NCBI RefSeq assembly: GCF_030388665.1
Contig: NZ_CP128846.1
Coordinates: forward strand, 3,202,001 to 3,266,000
DNA from: Streptomyces flavofungini
GTDB lineage: Bacteria > Actinomycetota > Actinomycetes > Streptomycetales > Streptomycetaceae
Reading direction: 5' to 3'
DNA length: 64,000 nucleotides
Below are positions 22,323 through 29,706 of the stretch, piece after piece. Within the stretch, counting starts at the first letter, position 1, and the number at the start of each line of letters is the position of its first letter. The translations under genes and the position numbers were made by a program. The notes below the pieces were generated by a model. The model was not told where the DNA came from. It searched no databases and worked only from the letters and a program-made list of their open reading frames with translations.

Positions 22323-24026
22323 TCACGCTGCGGCCAGCTCCTTGCCGGTGTCACCGCCGTCGCCACCCTCCGCGCCCTCCGCGCCCTCCGTACCCGCCGC
22401 GCGCGCCGCCCGTGCGGCCGCCGCCACGCTCCGACGCGCCGCCCGCCGCTCCTGCGCGGCCGCCGGGTCGAGCGCGGGCACGGCGGCGAGCAGCTGCCGG
22501 GTGTACGGGTCCTTGGGCGCGTCGTACACCTCGTCCACGGACCCGTACTCGACGATCCGGCCGCGCCGCATCACGGCGACCTTGTCGCTGACCTGACGTA
22601 CCACCGCCAGATCGTGCGCGACGAAGACGAGGGCGAGCCCCAGCTCCCGCTGCAGTTCGGCGAGCAGCGCCGTGACCTGCGCCTGGGTGGTGACGTCCAG
22701 GGCGGAGACCGGTTCGTCGCAGACGATGAGGCGGGGCTCGGCGGCGAGCGCCCTCGCGATGCCGACGCGCTGGCGCTGGCCGCCGCTGAACTCGTGCGGG
22801 TAGCGGCCGTAGTGCGCGGGGTCGAGGCCGACCCGGGTCATCAGGTCGCGCACGCGGGCACGGATCGCGTCCTCGTCGCGGTCGCCCCGGGCCCGCAGCG
22901 GGTCCGCGATCGACTCGCCGACCGAGCGGCGCGGGTTGAGCGAGGAGACGGGGTCCTGGAACACCATCTGCACGCCGGGCACGACGCCCTTGGCCTGCTT
23001 CTGCGCACCCCCGTGGCGGAGTTGCCCGGCCGTCGGTTCCAGGAGGCCGACGAGCATCCTGCCGAGGGTCGTCTTGCCGCTGCCGCTCTCGCCGACGACG
23101 CCGAGCGTCTCGCCGCGCCGCACGCTGAGCGACACCCCGTCGACGGCCGCGAAGGCCCGCTTGCCGCGACCGAACTCCCGCCGCAGCCCCTCGGCCTCGA
23201 CCACCACGTCGCCCAGGTCACCGGCGCGCCCCTCGCGGGCGGCGTCCACCCGGGGCACGGCGCTCAGGAGCTGCCGGGTGTAGGCCTGCCGCGGCGCCGA
23301 GAGGACATCGGCGACGCGCCCGCTCTCGACGACGCGCCCGTGCCGCATGACGAGCACGTCGTCGATGCTCTCGGCCGCGACGCCCACGTCGTGCGTGACC
23401 AGGAGCAGCCCCATGCCGGTCTCCTCGCGCAGCCCGTGCAGCAGGTCGAGGATCTGCGCCTGCACGGTCACGTCGAGGGCGGTCGTGGGCTCGTCGGCGA
23501 TGAGCAGCTGCGGCTCGCAGGCGAGCGCCATGGCGATCAGGGCGCGCTGCCGCATGCCGCCGCTGAACTCGTGCGGGCGCGACCGGGCGCGCCGCGCCGC
23601 GTCGGGGATCCCCACGCGGTCGAGGACCTCGACGGCCCGGGCCCGGGCGGCGCGCCGGGAGGCCCTGGAGTGGGTCCGGTACACCTCGGCGATCTGGTCG
23701 CCCACCGCGTAGTACGGATCGAGCGAGGACAGCGGGTCCTGGAAGACCATCGCGGCGACCGGGCCGCGCAGCCCGCGCAGTTCGGTGTCCGTGGCCGCGC
23801 CGACGTCGGTGCCGCCGACGCGCACGGAGCCCGTCACGCGGGCGCCCGTGTCCCGGTGGAGCCCGAGCAGCGCGGACGCGACGGTCGACTTGCCGGAGCC
23901 GGACTCGCCGACGAGGCCGAGTGCCCCGCCGCGCTCCAGCGTGAAGGAGACCGAGTCCACGGCCCGCACGGAGTCGAACTCGACGCTCAGGTCGTCCACG
24001 TGGACGAGACTCTGCTCGGGGCTCAT
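22323..24026 (-). CDS. Fused peptide ABC transporter ATPase (DppD-DppF type)
   Basis: A 567-aa protein containing two complete ABC ATPase domains. Both have Walker A GESGSGKST/T; the signature motifs are SGGMRQR and SGGQRQR, followed by Walker B regions LLIADEPTTALDV and LIVCDEPVSALDV. The second half carries the oligopeptide-transporter C-terminal region (KDPYTRQLLAAVP). It would energise uptake of di- or oligopeptides with the two permeases upstream. ATG 24026 overlaps the permease stop (ATGA). Fusion of the two ATPases into one chain is common in actinobacteria. It is the last gene of the transport operon. Confidence 0.93.
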   Translation of the reverse strand: MSPEQSLVHVDDLSVEFDSVRAVDSVSFTLERGGALGLVGESGSGKSTVASALLGLHRDTGARVTGSVRVGGTDVGAATDTELRGLRGPVAAMVFQDPLSSLDPYYAVGDQIAEVYRTHSRASRRAARARAVEVLDRVGIPDAARRARSRPHEFSGGMRQRALIAMALACEPQLLIADEPTTALDVTVQAQILDLLHGLREETGMGLLLVTHDVGVAAESIDDVLVMRHGRVVESGRVADVLSAPRQAYTRQLLSAVPRVDAAREGRAGDLGDVVVEAEGLRREFGRGKRAFAAVDGVSLSVRRGETLGVVGESGSGKTTLGRMLVGLLEPTAGQLRHGGAQKQAKGVVPGVQMVFQDPVSSLNPRRSVGESIADPLRARGDRDEDAIRARVRDLMTRVGLDPAHYGRYPHEFSGGQRQRVGIARALAAEPRLIVCDEPVSALDVTTQAQVTALLAELQRELGLALVFVAHDLAVVRQVSDKVAVMRRGRIVEYGSVDEVYDAPKDPYTRQLLAAVPALDPAAAQERRAARRSVAAAARAARAAGTEGAEGAEGGDGGDTGKELAAA

Positions 24027-25081
24027 GACAGCACCACCCGTCGGTCGGCCACCGCGTACAGGACGTCCGCGACGGCGTTGGCGAGGACCACGAAGAAGCC
24101 GGTGACCATGACCATGCCGACGACCACCGGCAGGTCGACGACCCGGACCGCGTGCACGAGTTCGCGTCCGAGCCCGGGCAGGCCGAACAGCGTCTCGGTG
24201 AGCAGCGCGCCGCCGAACATCGAACCGAAGTCGTTGGCGGTGAGGGCGATCACGGGGGCGAGCGCGCCGCGCAGGGCGTGCCGCCCGACGATGGACCGCT
24301 CCTTGACGCCGTACGCGCGGAAGGTGCGCACATGGTCCTCGGCGAGCGTCTCCAGCATCGAGGCGCGGGTGAGCCGGGCGTACTTGGCGGCCTCGATGAG
24401 CGCGAGCGACACCCAGGGAAGGAGCAGGTTCCACGCCCACTGCTGCGGGTCGTCCGTGAACGGCACGTACTGCGGGAACGGCAGCCACTGCAGCTGGCCG
24501 CAGACCAGGATCATCAGGAGCAGGCCGATCACGAACACGGGCGTGGCCGTGCCCGCGAGGGTGACGGCGGTCAGGACGCGCTCCGTGAGCCGGCCGCGCC
24601 GCCAGGCGGAGAGCACGCCGGTGCCGACACCGAGGATCAGCCACAGCACCATCGCGCCGAGCGCGAGGGATCCGGTGACGGGCACCTTGCTCAGGATCAG
24701 CTCGGTGACCTGCTGGTCGGTCTGGTACGAGAGGCCGAGGCAGGGCGCGTCGCAGTGCAGCACGCCGGTGCCGGTGGAGTAGTCGTGGCCGGCGAAGACG
24801 CCGCTCAGGAAGTCCAGGTAGCGCGTGTAGATCGGGTCGTCGAGCTTCAGCTGCTCGGACACCTGCTGCACCTGGGCGGGCGAGCAGCGCGGGCCGCAGG
24901 TGATCTGGGCGACGTCGCCGGGCGCCACGTAGAAGACGGCGTAGATGACGACGGACAGCACGAAGAGGGTGACGAGGGCGCCGAGGGCCCGGCGCAGGAC
25001 GAACCCGGTGAAGCCGCCGCCGAGCAGACCGCCGAACCCACGGGCCCTGGTGGCCACGGAAGCGGACAAGGTCGCGGTCAC
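24023..25081 (-). CDS. Peptide ABC transporter permease (DppB type)
   Basis: A 352-aa membrane protein with an N-terminal helix, a large extracytoplasmic loop and five further helices. The permease signature for ATPase contact is in GRHALRGALAPVIALTANDFG. It pairs with the DppC-type permease to form the translocation channel. GTG start at 25081 overlaps the upstream stop (GTGA), and its own stop overlaps the ATPase start, so the operon is translationally coupled. The loop contains the pair CGPRC near residue 62. Confidence 0.92.
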   Translation of the reverse strand: MTATLSASVATRARGFGGLLGGGFTGFVLRRALGALVTLFVLSVVIYAVFYVAPGDVAQITCGPRCSPAQVQQVSEQLKLDDPIYTRYLDFLSGVFAGHDYSTGTGVLHCDAPCLGLSYQTDQQVTELILSKVPVTGSLALGAMVLWLILGVGTGVLSAWRRGRLTERVLTAVTLAGTATPVFVIGLLLMILVCGQLQWLPFPQYVPFTDDPQQWAWNLLLPWVSLALIEAAKYARLTRASMLETLAEDHVRTFRAYGVKERSIVGRHALRGALAPVIALTANDFGSMFGGALLTETLFGLPGLGRELVHAVRVVDLPVVVGMVMVTGFFVVLANAVADVLYAVADRRVVLS

Positions 25082-26076
25082 GACGCGTCCTCCCGCTTCC
25101 GGCCGGTGCCGATCCGCAGCCGCGATGCCGCCCGCGGGTCGAGGGCCGTGCGCACTCCGTCGCCGAGGACGGTCAGCGCGAGCACGGTCACGAACAGCGC
25201 GGCGGCGGGCAGCAGCAGGTACTGCGGGGCCGCCTGGTACCAGACGTCGGCCGAGGTCAGCATCTGTCCCCAGGAGGCGGTGGGCGGCTTGACGCCGACG
25301 CCGAGGAAGGACAGGGCCGCCTCGACGGTGATGTTCGTGGGGACGAGCAGCGCGGCGTACGTGATGACGGGCGCGGCGAGCGCGGGCAGCAGCTCGCGGC
25401 GGGCGATCCGGGCGCCGCTCCAGCCGCTGAGCCGGGCCGCCGCCACGTGGTCGAGGGACTTCAGCGAGATGGTCTTGGCCCGCACGACCTTCGCGATCCC
25501 GCCCCAGCCCACGAACCCGATGACCAGCGCGACGAGCACCGGCCGCGGGAAGCCGCTCGGCACGACGGCGAGCAGCGCGAGCGCGAGGACCATCAGGGGC
25601 AGCGCCACCATGACGTCGGTGGCGCGGCTGAGCGTCTGGTCGAGCCAGCGCCCGCCGAGGCCGCTGGCGAGCCCGACGGCGATGCCGATGGCGACCTGGA
25701 GGACCGTGGCGACGACGGCGACGCCGAGGGACACCCGGGCGCCGTACACGAGCCGGGCGAACAGGTCGCGGCCGGTCTGCGGTTCGACGCCGAGCCAGTG
25801 GTCGGCGCTGATGCCGCCGAACGAGCCGACGGGCACGCCGCCGCGCGCGGAGTCGACGAGACCGGGGTGGTACGAGGTGGGGTCCTGGCCCTCCAGGGCG
25901 GTGAGCAGGGGCGCGGCGAGCGCGACCAGGACGAGCAGCGCGACGGCGGCCGCCGCGACGAGGGCGGCGCGCTGCGTGCGCAGCCGCCGCCAGAACTGAC
26001 GGGCTCCGGAGGCGGGGACGGGCGCCGTGGTGGCACCCGCCCCCGGGGTCTCCGAGGCCAACAGGGCCTCACTCAT
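25078..26076 (-). CDS. Peptide ABC transporter permease (DppC type)
   Basis: A 332-aa permease with six predicted helices. The N-terminal helix is in AALVAAAAVALLVLVALAAP, and the ATPase-contact loop is in ARRELLPALAAPVITYAALLVP, followed by ALSFLGVGVKPPTASWGQML, which is typical of DppC/OppC. ATG 26076 lies 35 bp downstream of the binding-protein gene. It acts with the DppB-type protein in peptide uptake. Confidence 0.92.
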   Translation of the reverse strand: MSEALLASETPGAGATTAPVPASGARQFWRRLRTQRAALVAAAAVALLVLVALAAPLLTALEGQDPTSYHPGLVDSARGGVPVGSFGGISADHWLGVEPQTGRDLFARLVYGARVSLGVAVVATVLQVAIGIAVGLASGLGGRWLDQTLSRATDVMVALPLMVLALALLAVVPSGFPRPVLVALVIGFVGWGGIAKVVRAKTISLKSLDHVAAARLSGWSGARIARRELLPALAAPVITYAALLVPTNITVEAALSFLGVGVKPPTASWGQMLTSADVWYQAAPQYLLLPAAALFVTVLALTVLGDGVRTALDPRAASRLRIGTGRKREDAS

Positions 26077-26111: not shown

Positions 26112-27839
26112 CTACTTGACCGCGACCTGGGAGACGTCGAGGACGCCCGTCCAGTCACTGATCACGACGTTCTTGACGTCCTTGCCGTACAGGCGCTTGT
26201 AGACGGGGTGGAACAGCGGCACGTTCAGGGCCTTGGCGCCGATCTTCTTGTCGAGGGCGCCCCAGCGCTTCGCGGCGGCGGCGTGGTCGGTCAGCTTGTT
26301 GATCTCGTCGATCTCCTTGTTGACCGACTTGTCGTCCAGGAAGCTGGAGTTGAAGTTGTAGCCGTCCTCGACGATCTGGCGGCCGTCGAAGATCGGGGCG
26401 AGGAAGGGGCCGCCGGAGGGCCAGTCGGCACCCCAGTGGGCGAGGAACAGGCCGGGCTCGTCCTTGGCGTCGTGGACCTTGTCCTCGTAGTCGTTGTCCT
26501 CCAGGCCCTGGAGCTTGACGGTGATGCCGGCCTTCTTCAGGGCGTCCTGGATCGCGGTCGCGATCTCCGGGCTGGTCTCGAAGTTCTTGTCGTTGGAGTG
26601 CGTGAGCGTGATGGTCAGGCCGTCCTTGTGGCCGGCCGCCTTCAGGAGCTCCTTGGCCTTCTCCGCGTTGCCGGACGCGCCTGCCGGGAAGTGGTCGAAC
26701 TTCGTGTATCCGAAGGACTCCTGGTTCGGCAGGAAGGTGGTGGCGGGCTCGGCGAGCGAGGAGCCGCCGGCGGCGTTGATGACCGAGGTGCGGTCGACGG
26801 CGTAGGCGATGGCCTGGCGGACCTTGGGGTCGTCGAACGGCTTCACCTTCGGGTTGAAGGCGAGGTAGTTGGTGTAGCCGAAGTGGCCGGTGCCGACCTG
26901 CGCGGCGAGCTTCTTGTCGCCGGTGACCTTGGCGAGCTCGGCGGGTCCGAGGTTGGTGTCGGTGGTGATCGCGGCGGCGTCGGCGCCCTGGCTCGCGGAG
27001 AGCCGCTGGTTGATGACGGAGGAGTTGAGGCCGGAGCGCACGTCGATCTTGTCGGGGTAGGCCTTGCGCTCGGCGTCGGTCTTCGCCGACCAGTGCGGGT
27101 TGCGCTCCAGCTGGAGCCGCTCGCCGTCGCCGCTGTTCTTGACGACCTTGTAGGGGCCGGTGGAGACCGGGTGCTCCTCGTACTCGGTGCCCTTGTCCTT
27201 GGCCTTCGGCACGGGCGCGAACGACGTCTGCGTGGCCACGTAGTCGAAGTCGCCGACGGGCTTGTTGAGGCGGAAGACGATCGTCTGGTCGTCCGGCGTC
27301 TCGACGGAGTCGAGGCCCTTCTTGTCCTTGTAGGGGCCCTGGTACTTGTCGCCGCCGATGAGCCAGTCCCGCAGGAAGGGCGCGCCGCCGGACAGTTCGG
27401 CGGCGAAGGAGCGCTCGATGCCGTACTTGATGTCCTTGGTGGTGACCGGCGTGCCGTCCTCGAACTTCACGCCCTTCTTGATCTTGTACGTCCACACCGT
27501 GGCGTTCTTGCTCGGCTTGCCGAGGCTCTCGGCGAGGTCGGGGACGACCTTGGTGCCCTCGGCGCCGTCCTCGCGGTTGCGGGTGGTCAGGGTGCGGAAG
27601 ACGAGGCTCGGTACGTTGCCGCCGCCGGAGGTGTACAGGCGCGCCGGGTCGAAGTCGCTCTGCGGGTTGCTGTTGAGGACGGTGAGCGTGCCGCCCCGCT
27701 GCGGCTTGCCGCCGCCGCCCGCCTCGTTCTTGTCCTCCGGGCCCGCGCAGGCCGCGGCGCCCACGGAGAGCACGACCAGGCTGGCGGATGCCACGGCCAC
27801 CCGGCGGGATATGACGGACTTCTGACGACGCAGACGCAT
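26112..27839 (-). CDS. Peptide ABC transporter substrate-binding lipoprotein (SBP family 5)
   Basis: A 575-aa exported lipoprotein (SVGAAAC, lipidated Cys31) of the DppA/OppA family: RGGTLTVLNSNPQSDFDPARLY, TYKIKKGVKFEDGTPVTTKDIKYGIERSF. It captures peptides or similar solutes outside the membrane for the two permeases and the fused ATPase downstream. The ATG follows GAGAGG at 8 nt. The Shine-Dalgarno region can pair with an upstream CTCTCG stretch (hairpin arms at 27848-27853 and 27884-27889 in plus coordinates). A putative leader peptide lies about 200 nt upstream. The true ligand is unknown. Confidence 0.94.
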   Translation of the reverse strand: MRLRRQKSVISRRVAVASASLVVLSVGAAACAGPEDKNEAGGGGKPQRGGTLTVLNSNPQSDFDPARLYTSGGGNVPSLVFRTLTTRNREDGAEGTKVVPDLAESLGKPSKNATVWTYKIKKGVKFEDGTPVTTKDIKYGIERSFAAELSGGAPFLRDWLIGGDKYQGPYKDKKGLDSVETPDDQTIVFRLNKPVGDFDYVATQTSFAPVPKAKDKGTEYEEHPVSTGPYKVVKNSGDGERLQLERNPHWSAKTDAERKAYPDKIDVRSGLNSSVINQRLSASQGADAAAITTDTNLGPAELAKVTGDKKLAAQVGTGHFGYTNYLAFNPKVKPFDDPKVRQAIAYAVDRTSVINAAGGSSLAEPATTFLPNQESFGYTKFDHFPAGASGNAEKAKELLKAAGHKDGLTITLTHSNDKNFETSPEIATAIQDALKKAGITVKLQGLEDNDYEDKVHDAKDEPGLFLAHWGADWPSGGPFLAPIFDGRQIVEDGYNFNSSFLDDKSVNKEIDEINKLTDHAAAAKRWGALDKKIGAKALNVPLFHPVYKRLYGKDVKNVVISDWTGVLDVSQVAVK

Positions 27840-28041
27840 CGGAGTGCCTCTCGGAAAGCGAAAGAGAAAGATTCAAGGATTCGCGAGAGCCCACCCAGGG
27901 CGACGCACGCCGAGCGCGGCTTCGGGCCTGCCGAGGACCGCCGTGCGCACCGACCGTAGACGGTTGGGGCACACGGCAGGGGAAAAGGCGGCGGAGCCGG
28001 GAAAAACGAAGCAGAAGCGACGCACTCGCCGGGGGCGGGCG

Positions 28042-28134
28042 TCAGCGACAGTGAATGTCGGCCACGCAGAGCGCGGTCACGCCGAACAGCGCCAGCTCAA
28101 GGGCGGCGCTCACGGAGGCGTGACGGATCGACAT
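28042..28134 (-). CDS. Putative leaderless, Cys-containing leader peptide
   Basis: A 30-residue ORF upstream of the peptide-transporter operon. It begins MSIRHASV, has a hydrophobic middle (ELALFGVTALC) and ends ADIHCR; Cys are at residues 23 and 29. There is no Shine-Dalgarno, but a near-consensus promoter (TTGACT, 17-bp spacer, CATATT) ends 7 nt before the ATG, so transcription probably starts at the A of ATG. Short Cys-containing leader peptides ahead of sulfur or uptake operons are known in actinobacteria; whether this belongs to that class is inference. Confidence 0.55.
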   Translation of the reverse strand: MSIRHASVSAALELALFGVTALCVADIHCR

Positions 28135-28141
28135 GCGGAGA

Positions 28142-28170
28142 AATATGGACGACGTCGCGCGGAAAGTCAA
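28142..28170 (-). promoter_or_regulatory. Promoter of dpp leader (TTGACT-17-CATATT)
   Basis: On the minus strand, -35 TTGACT (28170-28165) and -10 CATATT (28147-28142) are separated by exactly 17 bp. It is among the best housekeeping-type promoters visible in the window. The expected start point coincides with the ATG at 28134. Confidence 0.7.
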
Positions 28171-28212
28171 CGCGATGCCCGGTTCGTCCCCCGTCCCGGT
28201 GCCGGGGCCGGC

Positions 28213-29706
28213 TCAACTCTCCGGGAACGCCCAGGGGTTGGCCTTGCAGCGGATTCCGTCGTGGTCGAGGAACTTGGTCTGCTGCTGCATGACCGGCGCC
28301 AGTTCGCCGTCGCGGCGGCAGTCGACGTGGCCGTAGCCGAGCCGGTGGCCGACCTCGTGGTTGATGAGCATCTGCCGGTACGGGTGGATGCGGTCGCCGT
28401 AGGTCTTGGCGCCGCGGGCCCACCGATAGGCGTTGATCATGACGCGCTCGGTGGCCGCGGAATCGCAGGACACATTCTGCTGCAGCGTGTCGAGTCCGGA
28501 TTTGGCGCACCATTTCGCGGTGGTCACAGGGCTGGCCAGCGTGATGACGAAGTCGGGTTTCCCGGAGGAGATCCGCTCGAAGGTGCGGCCGCCGCCGTGC
28601 GCCCAACTCCGCTTGTCGTTCAGGGTCTTCTGCACGGCCTGCGCGAACAGGGCGCCGTCCAGGCCCATGCCCTTCTCGACGTCGACGCGGTAGCGGAATT
28701 TCCGTCCCTTGCCCGGTGCCTTGTCGAATCCGCGGATGGCGTCGAATTCCCCGGACGCGGCGAGTTTCGCGTCCAGCGGGTATTTCTTGCCCATTTTCTC
28801 CTCGTACGTCGCCGGACGGGGCTGCGTGTCCTTGGACGGCGTGGGCCGGTTGTCCGAGCGGGACGCCGGGTCGCGCCCTTCACGGCTGTCGGCGCCCTTG
28901 TCCGCGCCCTGGGCGGGCTGGCTGTCGTCGCTGCCGCCGTCGGCGACCTGACCGGCCACGATGACGGCGAGGACGGTGGTGACGGCCGCGGCGGCGATGC
29001 CGGTGACGGTGCGGGCGCGGTTCTTCTCGCGGCCCTTGCCGGTACGGGCGTCGGGCTCGCCGTCGTCGTCGCCGTACGGGTCGGCGTCGGTGCCGCCGCC
29101 GTCACCGTCGTCGAAGCCGTCGGACTCCCAGACCGTCACGGACTCGTACGGGTCGCGGGGCGGGGTGCGCCGCGGCGGCACCGCGCGGGCGGTGAAGAGG
29201 TCCGGGTCGTCGAGGTCATCGACGGCGCCGTGCGCGCCGGTGTCGTCGAAGGCGTCCATGTAGTCGCGCCGGGGCCCGGGCGTGCGCGCGCCCGGCGGCA
29301 CGACGCCGTACCCGGCCCCCACCCGGGGCCCGGCGCCCGTGCCCGCGACCTCGCCCCAGCCGCCCCCGGCCTCCCGCTGCTCGGGGTGCCCGCCACGCAC
29401 GTGCGGGACGCCGCCGGGAGGGGTCTGGCGGGGGACGCCGCGCGGGGGCGTGTGCTGCGGGAATCCGTGGGCCGGGGTGTGCGCCGGGTCGCCGTAGGGC
29501 GGTGTGGGCAGCGGGATGCCGTGCGCGGGCGTGCCCTCGGGGGCCGTACCGCGTCTGCGGCGGCCGGAGCCGCCGCCCTGCGCGGGGGCGGCCGGAGCCG
29601 ACGGGGGCGTCCGGTTCGGCTGGGGCCCGGGGGTGGTACCCCCTATGCCGGAGGTGCTCGTGGTGTCCGAAGAGGCGGCCGGGCCGCGGCGGCTATGACG
29701 TCCCAC
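28213..29706 (-). CDS. DUF3152 membrane-anchored, metzincin-like protein
   Basis: A 497-aa protein. About 230 N-terminal cytoplasmic residues are Gly/Pro-rich with PxHTPxxG-like repeats; one membrane helix lies at about 236-256; a charged linker and a C-terminal extracellular DUF3152 domain follow. The domain ends with HEVGHRLGYGH (His450, Glu451, His454, His460) and a downstream APVMQQQ that resembles a Met-turn, as in metzincin zinc proteases. Four cysteines in the domain could form disulfides. Peptidase activity is inferred from the motif only. M. tuberculosis has, I believe, a homologue at the equivalent place (Rv3207c). Confidence 0.88.
   Translation of the reverse strand: MGRHSRRGPAASSDTTSTSGIGGTTPGPQPNRTPPSAPAAPAQGGGSGRRRRGTAPEGTPAHGIPLPTPPYGDPAHTPAHGFPQHTPPRGVPRQTPPGGVPHVRGGHPEQREAGGGWGEVAGTGAGPRVGAGYGVVPPGARTPGPRRDYMDAFDDTGAHGAVDDLDDPDLFTARAVPPRRTPPRDPYESVTVWESDGFDDGDGGGTDADPYGDDDGEPDARTGKGREKNRARTVTGIAAAAVTTVLAVIVAGQVADGGSDDSQPAQGADKGADSREGRDPASRSDNRPTPSKDTQPRPATYEEKMGKKYPLDAKLAASGEFDAIRGFDKAPGKGRKFRYRVDVEKGMGLDGALFAQAVQKTLNDKRSWAHGGGRTFERISSGKPDFVITLASPVTTAKWCAKSGLDTLQQNVSCDSAATERVMINAYRWARGAKTYGDRIHPYRQMLINHEVGHRLGYGHVDCRRDGELAPVMQQQTKFLDHDGIRCKANPWAFPES

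Follow-up and report, generated by a model that had tools for sequence, protein, structure and literature searches.

A cysteine leader peptide of the NF042937 family, probably leaderless, ahead of a peptide ABC importer operon in Streptomyces

A short open reading frame (ORF) on the minus strand of the analysed Streptomyces flavofungini DNA, a stretch of 64,000 nucleotides referred to as the window in the following, encodes a peptide of the Cys leader family NF042937 and precedes the genes of a peptide-type ABC transporter. We consider it likely that this ORF is a leaderless, cis-acting leader which makes the peptide ABC operon respond to the supply of Cys-tRNA via termination of transcription, with induction of the importer on Cys starvation as the likely role of the leader. 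The original prediction of a leaderless Cys leader before a peptide ABC operon is thus retained as probable, with the correction that the leader belongs to a family which already carries a name. The features that constitute the arrangement are collected in Table 1.

Table 1. Features of the leader region and of the operon behind it; positions are those of the window.
Feature	Position	Strand	Evidence or remark
-35 hexamer TTGACT	28165..28170	-	TTGACA-like in 102/103 distinct Streptomyces upstream regions
-10 hexamer CATATT, ends 7 nt before leader ATG	28142..28147	-	same distance in 90/103 regions
Leader ORF, 30 codons + TGA, MSIRHASVSAALELALFGVTALCVADIHCR	28042..28134	-	NF042937.1 47 bits, cut-off 31
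Cys23 codon TGC, not invariant	28066..28068	-	Cys in 101/105 distinct leaders
Cys29 codon TGT, invariant candidate sensing codon	28048..28050	-	TGT in 105/105 distinct leaders
GC-rich hairpin; 5' arm begins in codon 30, overlaps stop codon	28017..28046	-	
Pyrimidine-rich tract UUCUGCUUCGUUUUUCCC, directly 3' of hairpin	27999..28016	-	
Shine-Dalgarno site GAGAGG of binding-protein gene	27847..27852	-	
Extracellular solute-binding protein family 5, 575 aa	26112..27839	-	PF00496 265.9 bits
DppC/OppC-type permease	25078..26076	-	PF00528, PF12911
DppB/OppB-type permease	24023..25081	-	PF00528, PF19300
Two-domain peptide-type ABC ATPase	22323..24026	-	2x PF00005 + 2x oligo_HPY in longer frame 22323-24644; start placed at 24026
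DUF3152 gene, upstream of promoter in reading direction	28213-29706		PF11350

Between positions 27000 and 29000, TTGACT-17-CATATT is the sole sigma-70-like site that was found (mean of 0.1 in shuffled sequences), with a spacer of 17 nt and its end 7 nt before the leader ATG at 28134, as the original prediction had proposed without giving the strand, which is the minus strand. The predicted 30-codon ORF with Cys at positions 23 and 29 was equally recovered and runs from 28134 down to 28042. The distance between promoter and start codon is widely kept in the genus: of 103 distinct Streptomyces upstream regions, 90 have CATATT exactly as far from the ATG as the window, and a -35 hexamer with five or six of six matches to TTGACA is present in 102 of them, while a Shine-Dalgarno core (GGAG, GAGG, AGGA or AAGG) within the 14 nt before the leader ATG occurs in none of the 103. 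Because of this promoter position and the missing Shine-Dalgarno core, the leader is probably translated from a leaderless start, with a transcript that begins at or next to the ATG, which agrees with the predicted leaderless nature of the Cys-containing peptide.

The peptide matches the curated model NF042937, 'Ms4533A family Cys-rich leader peptide', over residues 1-30 with 47 bits against a cut-off of 31 (44.5 bits for the same leader in the genome-wide search), so that a Cys leader at this place is already implied by a database model; Ms we take to be M. smegmatis. No Pfam model matches the leader peptide, Rfam gave zero matches at E up to 1 within 27500-28500, and the second Cys leader model considered here, NF042934, has no match to the window's leader at E up to 1, which leaves NF042937 as the only one matched. 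The leader family is known already; among the matches listed in the open-access literature, there is no report of a Cys leader ahead of a peptide ABC operon.

The leader is inherited together with the operon. Across 199 Streptomyces genomes, it lies 145-329 nt upstream, a distance between matches and not between ORF ends, and on the same strand in 93 of 93 orthologs of the binding protein (at least 72% identity), and conservation of the peptide upstream of homologous operons, which the original prediction had chosen as its own refutation test, is thus what was found. Six first-look candidates were scored per genome in the binding-protein search, and one place per genome entered the pairing of leader and ortholog, the second places (44-46% identical) of G146 and G124 being left out. 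Binding-protein matches at E up to 1e-120 occur in 95 of the 199 genomes, with the leader upstream in 93, and the two without a leader (G047, G050) are paralogs with 44-45% identity. Leader matches at E up to 1 occur in 97 of the 199 genomes, of which those in G050, G105 and G142 (E 0.2 to 0.94) are probably due to chance. A leader-match genome outside the 93 is also G079 (E 3.7e-5), where, at locus L157, the peptide ABC operon is broken but still has the leader ahead of it.

The named genomes gave 182 places, and the best 80 of them are all titled Streptomyces except Actinobacteria bacterium OV320. Combined with 58 loci from the Streptomyces and class-wide genome searches, these 80 form a pool of 138 loci; matches L031-L036 from the genome of the window, which are below the cut-off, are excluded from all locus counts. 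As some genomes occur in both pooled sets, counts are given as distinct sequences, in which close strains still carry weight. The leader is also present in S. violaceoruber NRRL S-981 (locus L129), a close relative of S. coelicolor. A family 5 binding protein stands behind the leader in 123 of the 138 loci and is absent in 15, all 15 exceptions belonging to one other family of the class, called f4 here, whose genomes, by the name of the leader family and by sequence, are probably mycobacteria. Class-wide, NF042937 matches are found in 41 of 394 genomes (36 above the cut-off) and in 5 of 137 genera.

The most stringently conserved element is the codon of Cys29. All 105 distinct Streptomyces leaders have Cys at this position, always encoded by TGT, a codon which accounts for 75 of 904 Cys codons, or about 8%, in the background (long high-GC3 frames of the 80 named loci). 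Cys23 is Cys in 101 of the 105 leaders, with TGC in 97, and is replaced by S or A in four. Locus L038 was left out of this codon count. Of the Cys pair near the peptide end to which the original prediction had drawn attention, Cys29 is thus invariant and Cys23 is not. In the 15 f4 leaders, TGT equally encodes the Cys run ahead of the peptide end, the exception being a TGC immediately at the stop in three of them. In leaders of the NF042934 family, the conserved Cys is TGT in 33/33, five from the genome of the window and 28 foreign ones which are among the best-scoring matches (loci L148-L152, L161-L168 and L170-L189, L169, whose leader was misplaced, being left out); among the other Cys codons from the model match onward, 3 of 33 are TGT. 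The 107 TGC Cys codons in the binding-protein genes are weak evidence alone because they derive mainly from one conserved column. Two families thus use UGU for the conserved Cys (105/105 and 33/33 leaders), compared with a background share of about 8%, and we propose the term 'UGU rule' for this new observation. A single GCA tRNA reads both Cys codons, and slow wobble reading by this one Cys tRNA could be a reason for the rule.

The RNA that follows the sensing codon is a candidate termination region in Streptomyces. Folding of the leader end, in 51-nt windows from codon 29, has a mean z of -2.8 in 109 distinct Streptomyces sequences and of -1.0 in 16 others (15 f4 and Streptomyces L101); the window's own hairpin is not exceptional, with z of -1.67 for 51 nt and -0.88 for 66 nt. 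Directly 3' of the hairpin, the first 8 nt consist of 47% U and 4% G in 110 distinct Streptomyces sequences, as opposed to 27% and 24% in shuffles treated alike, and 34 of the 110 tails contain five or more U in these 8 nt compared with 68 of 2031 shuffles. The f4 tails reach five U in 0/15 and hold 39% G. The tract in the window is interrupted and not a clean U run. Terminator-like sites are present in 61 of 109 Streptomyces UTRs against 63 of 327 shuffles, at the leader-end hairpin in 44 of the 109, and the scan rule finds none in 48 of the 109; with the scan limited to even-length stem-loops, the figures are 28 of 109 UTRs and 36 of 327 shuffles. Rho-dependent termination would be compatible with the pyrimidine tract.

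The named pairs of the hairpin are standard in 85.9% of the alignment cells, against at most 52.7% when they are slid. Within Streptomyces, the leader-end hairpin shows no more covariation than shuffled controls because its arms hardly vary, and covariation neither supports nor refutes the hairpin; from the same alignment, RNAalifold picked a different stem of three pairs and not the leader-end hairpin. As a separate observation, main-clade UTRs (e.g. L018, L023, L075) possess a second hairpin of the CCGUGACC/GGUCACGG type, located some 40 nt past the leader stop; it resembles an intrinsic terminator and has a U run behind it in some loci. In the zone of this second hairpin, a terminator-like site is found in 20 of 109 UTRs and, by the same rule, none in the window.

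In the proposed mechanism, transcription would start at or next to the leader ATG, and translation would be initiated there with no need for a Shine-Dalgarno site. With ample charged tRNA-Cys, the ribosome would pass UGU codon 29 and leave, upon which the GC hairpin over the stop codon could form ahead of the U-rich, G-poor tract and lead to an early stop of transcription, either intrinsic-like or assisted by Rho. When Cys is short, the ribosome would wait at UGU 29 and cover the 5' arm of the hairpin, and the polymerase would continue into the importer genes. The footprint of a ribosome with Cys29 in the A site would cover this 5' arm. A ribosome stalled at Cys29 would thus block the hairpin, which fits a termination that is relieved by Cys starvation.

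The same leader and the same Cys signal could alternatively operate a translational switch, in which downstream RNA keeps the binding-protein gene's Shine-Dalgarno site inaccessible until a stall at Cys29 frees it, comparable to the translation attenuation of M. smegmatis cysteine genes described in the available portion of PMC13236596. Folding is in line with such a switch in f4, where masking of the leader end makes the Shine-Dalgarno site and start easier to open, with a gain above 0.5 kcal/mol, in 8 of 14 UTRs (14 of the 15 loci, L052 being without a start) and harder to open by this margin in none, and in the main Streptomyces clade the UTR sequence GACGACC is complementary to GGUCGUC at the Shine-Dalgarno site. 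However, the effect of masking in Streptomyces is mostly the opposite, as Shine-Dalgarno site and start become harder to open in 67 of 109 UTRs and easier in 21 (threshold 0.5 kcal/mol), with a mean of -1.0 kcal/mol and a value of -4.5 in the window, and the GACGACC:GGUCGUC pairing is without two-sided change in 68 UTRs. Due to this opposite sign of the opening energy in most loci, sequestration of the Shine-Dalgarno site was demoted as the main switch in Streptomyces. The masking values are those of equilibrium folding, which ignores folding during transcription, and for this reason the folding evidence against a translational switch, which we regard as unlikely, is not decisive. The opposite masking effects suggest that the same sensing part is probably coupled to different outputs, termination in Streptomyces and release of the Shine-Dalgarno site in f4, as far as modelled folding indicates.

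A point against termination governed by codons alone is that residues besides Cys are also conserved, which a pure codon counter would not need. Among 105 distinct leaders, 16 of the last 21 residues are at least 94% identical, and such residue conservation is unusual for a codon-counting leader. The VAD before Cys is kept in the 15 f4 leaders, the shared end reads VAD-x-x-C, and when Streptomyces leader L005 is compared with a set of 16 leaders (15 f4 and Streptomyces L101), 81 of 137 identical residues use different codons; therefore selection acts on the peptide. These findings would suit an arrest by the nascent peptide, whereby the residues before Cys29 in the exit tunnel help the ribosome to stop at UGU 29 and the peptide is a sensor as well. 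Yet synonymous sites of the leader, compared over 15 codons with at least 95% conservation, are under tighter constraint than those of the binding-protein gene (P about 0.012), and part of the conservation therefore resides at the RNA level. While we doubt that arrest is the correct reading, peptide and RNA levels both seem to matter, which leaves room for a contribution of the nascent chain. A tentative extension, to which we assign a rather low probability, is a two-part sensing of Cys in actinobacteria by a nascent-peptide motif in the tunnel and one obligatory, rare, wobble-read UGU, with one such leader family placed in Streptomyces before a sulfur-scavenging peptide importer; as part of this same tentative reading, the motifs would be VAD-I-x before Cys in NF042937 and HVDL-x-RVASAI before Cys in NF042934, with the same synonymous choice in both families. 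Far less probable is that the ORF encodes a small protein with its own function, to which the highly conserved C-terminal two thirds might point, or arose by chance within an untranslated region that is conserved, since the curated leader-peptide model, the fixed promoter-to-ATG geometry, the location before sulfur-supply genes in unrelated operons and the invariant rare Cys codon all speak against it.

The ATG of the binding-protein gene at 27839 is 202 nt after the leader stop, in accordance with the predicted gap of about 200 nt, and the operon is of the peptide ABC type, as had been predicted also. All NCBIfam equivalog models, those for glutathione and oligopeptide included, stay below the cut-off for the binding protein and the permeases, and the ATPase passes a dipeptide subfamily model as well as the nickel models (NikD, NikE), with a score that is the sum over two domains. 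In f4, the gene behind the leader is of the sulfate-binding type in 15 loci, one of them scored (TIGR00971, 174.7 bits over 155.5) and 14 judged by eye. As the leader precedes a sulfate-transport gene in these mycobacteria-like relatives, the importer behind the leader of the window probably supplies sulfur. Its most likely substrates are Cys-containing peptides, from which the sulfur would be obtained.

Other Cys leaders were also encountered next to sulfur genes. In one further family (G360), an NF042937-like leader at L156:2945-3052 with a TGT Cys, at 29.9 bits below the cut-off, lies about 170 nt before a sulfatase gene (PF00884, 213 bits). The genome of the window carries five further leaders over the NF042934 cut-off (L148-L152), several of them ahead of sulfur genes; the nearest scored genes behind the five encode a PLP enzyme of the cysteine-synthase type (PF00291) at a distance of 519 nt, a cysteine dioxygenase, a sulfite/nitrite reductase, an ABC permease and a rhodanese. 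A sixth NF042934 leader of this genome (L154), below the cut-off, stands before an SDF-family symporter. The original prediction had left the signal between cysteine and peptide supply; because of the invariant Cys29 codon, the sulfate-transport and sulfatase genes behind related leaders and the sulfur genes behind other leaders, cysteine is favoured over general peptide supply. For a Streptomyces peptide ABC transporter to which no substrate is assigned, the proposed Cys leader points to Cys-containing peptides, used for their sulfur, as the predicted class of substrates; it also ties the peptide importer to a genome-wide set of Cys leaders, and with UGU in all 138 Streptomyces leaders counted (105 + 33), sensing at the level of the codon becomes testable.

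A classical trp-type attenuator combines a terminator hairpin and U tract with an alternative antiterminator pairing. Here, sites that resemble terminators stand at 61/109 UTRs versus 63/327 shuffles, with an interrupted tract in the window, and candidate pairings can be listed, with leader-end covariation not above shuffles. The uORFC-8-2 motif before cysS of Rhodobacterales, for which ribosome-mediated attenuation is proposed in the available part of PMC8632094, is likewise a short ORF with conserved Cys codons, but those are in tandem, predominantly UGC and occasionally UGU, and are followed by an intrinsic terminator that has a U run, whereas UGU is invariant in the leaders described here. 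Cys leader peptides with Cys codons near the stop, as in the window, precede cys operons in Mycobacterium and Propionibacterium and cbs of Bifidobacterium; according to passages of PMC1262725, they have no conserved terminator, Rho-dependent termination is suggested for them, and no Streptomyces Cys leader is among those reported there. For Streptomyces itself, the reannotation of S. lividans TK24, in passages of PMC8079986, gives eight leaders, none before a peptide ABC operon. The metL leader among the TK24 annotations resembles the present one as a leaderless leader peptide before an amino-acid import operon, but is called Met-dependent in the part of PMC8079986 referred to and has a different sequence and operon; because of the three Cys in its end, CMCRRMCAF, it may be another Cys leader.

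The NF042934 leaders of Streptomyces, annotated as cis_reg_atten, are similar in the conserved Cys TGT (33/33 examined) and in the position of several before sulfur genes, and differ by their peptide, which is of the HVDLxRVASAIC type. In M. smegmatis, leaderless polycysteine small ORFs, work on which forms the experimental foundation of NF042937, confer Cys-responsive attenuation on the operon behind (Canestrari et al. 2020, as cited in the available sections of PMC9031893, PMC9094748 and PMC13236596). They share with the leader of the window the shortness, the Cys codons and, as predicted here, the leaderless start and the attenuation; on the other hand, as portrayed in those sections, their Cys codons are contiguous, whereas Cys23 and Cys29 are separated, and a translational switch is ascribed to them, for which equilibrium folding gives no support in Streptomyces. 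Within NF042937, the f4 relatives have a first gene of the sulfate-binding type in place of the peptide-type ABC transporter, end mostly in CCR or a longer Cys run, where in Streptomyces Cys29 alone is invariant, and are devoid of the U-rich, G-poor tract that follows the leader-end hairpin in Streptomyces, but the VAD-x-x-C end of the peptide and the position of the leader ahead of an ABC import operon are common to both.
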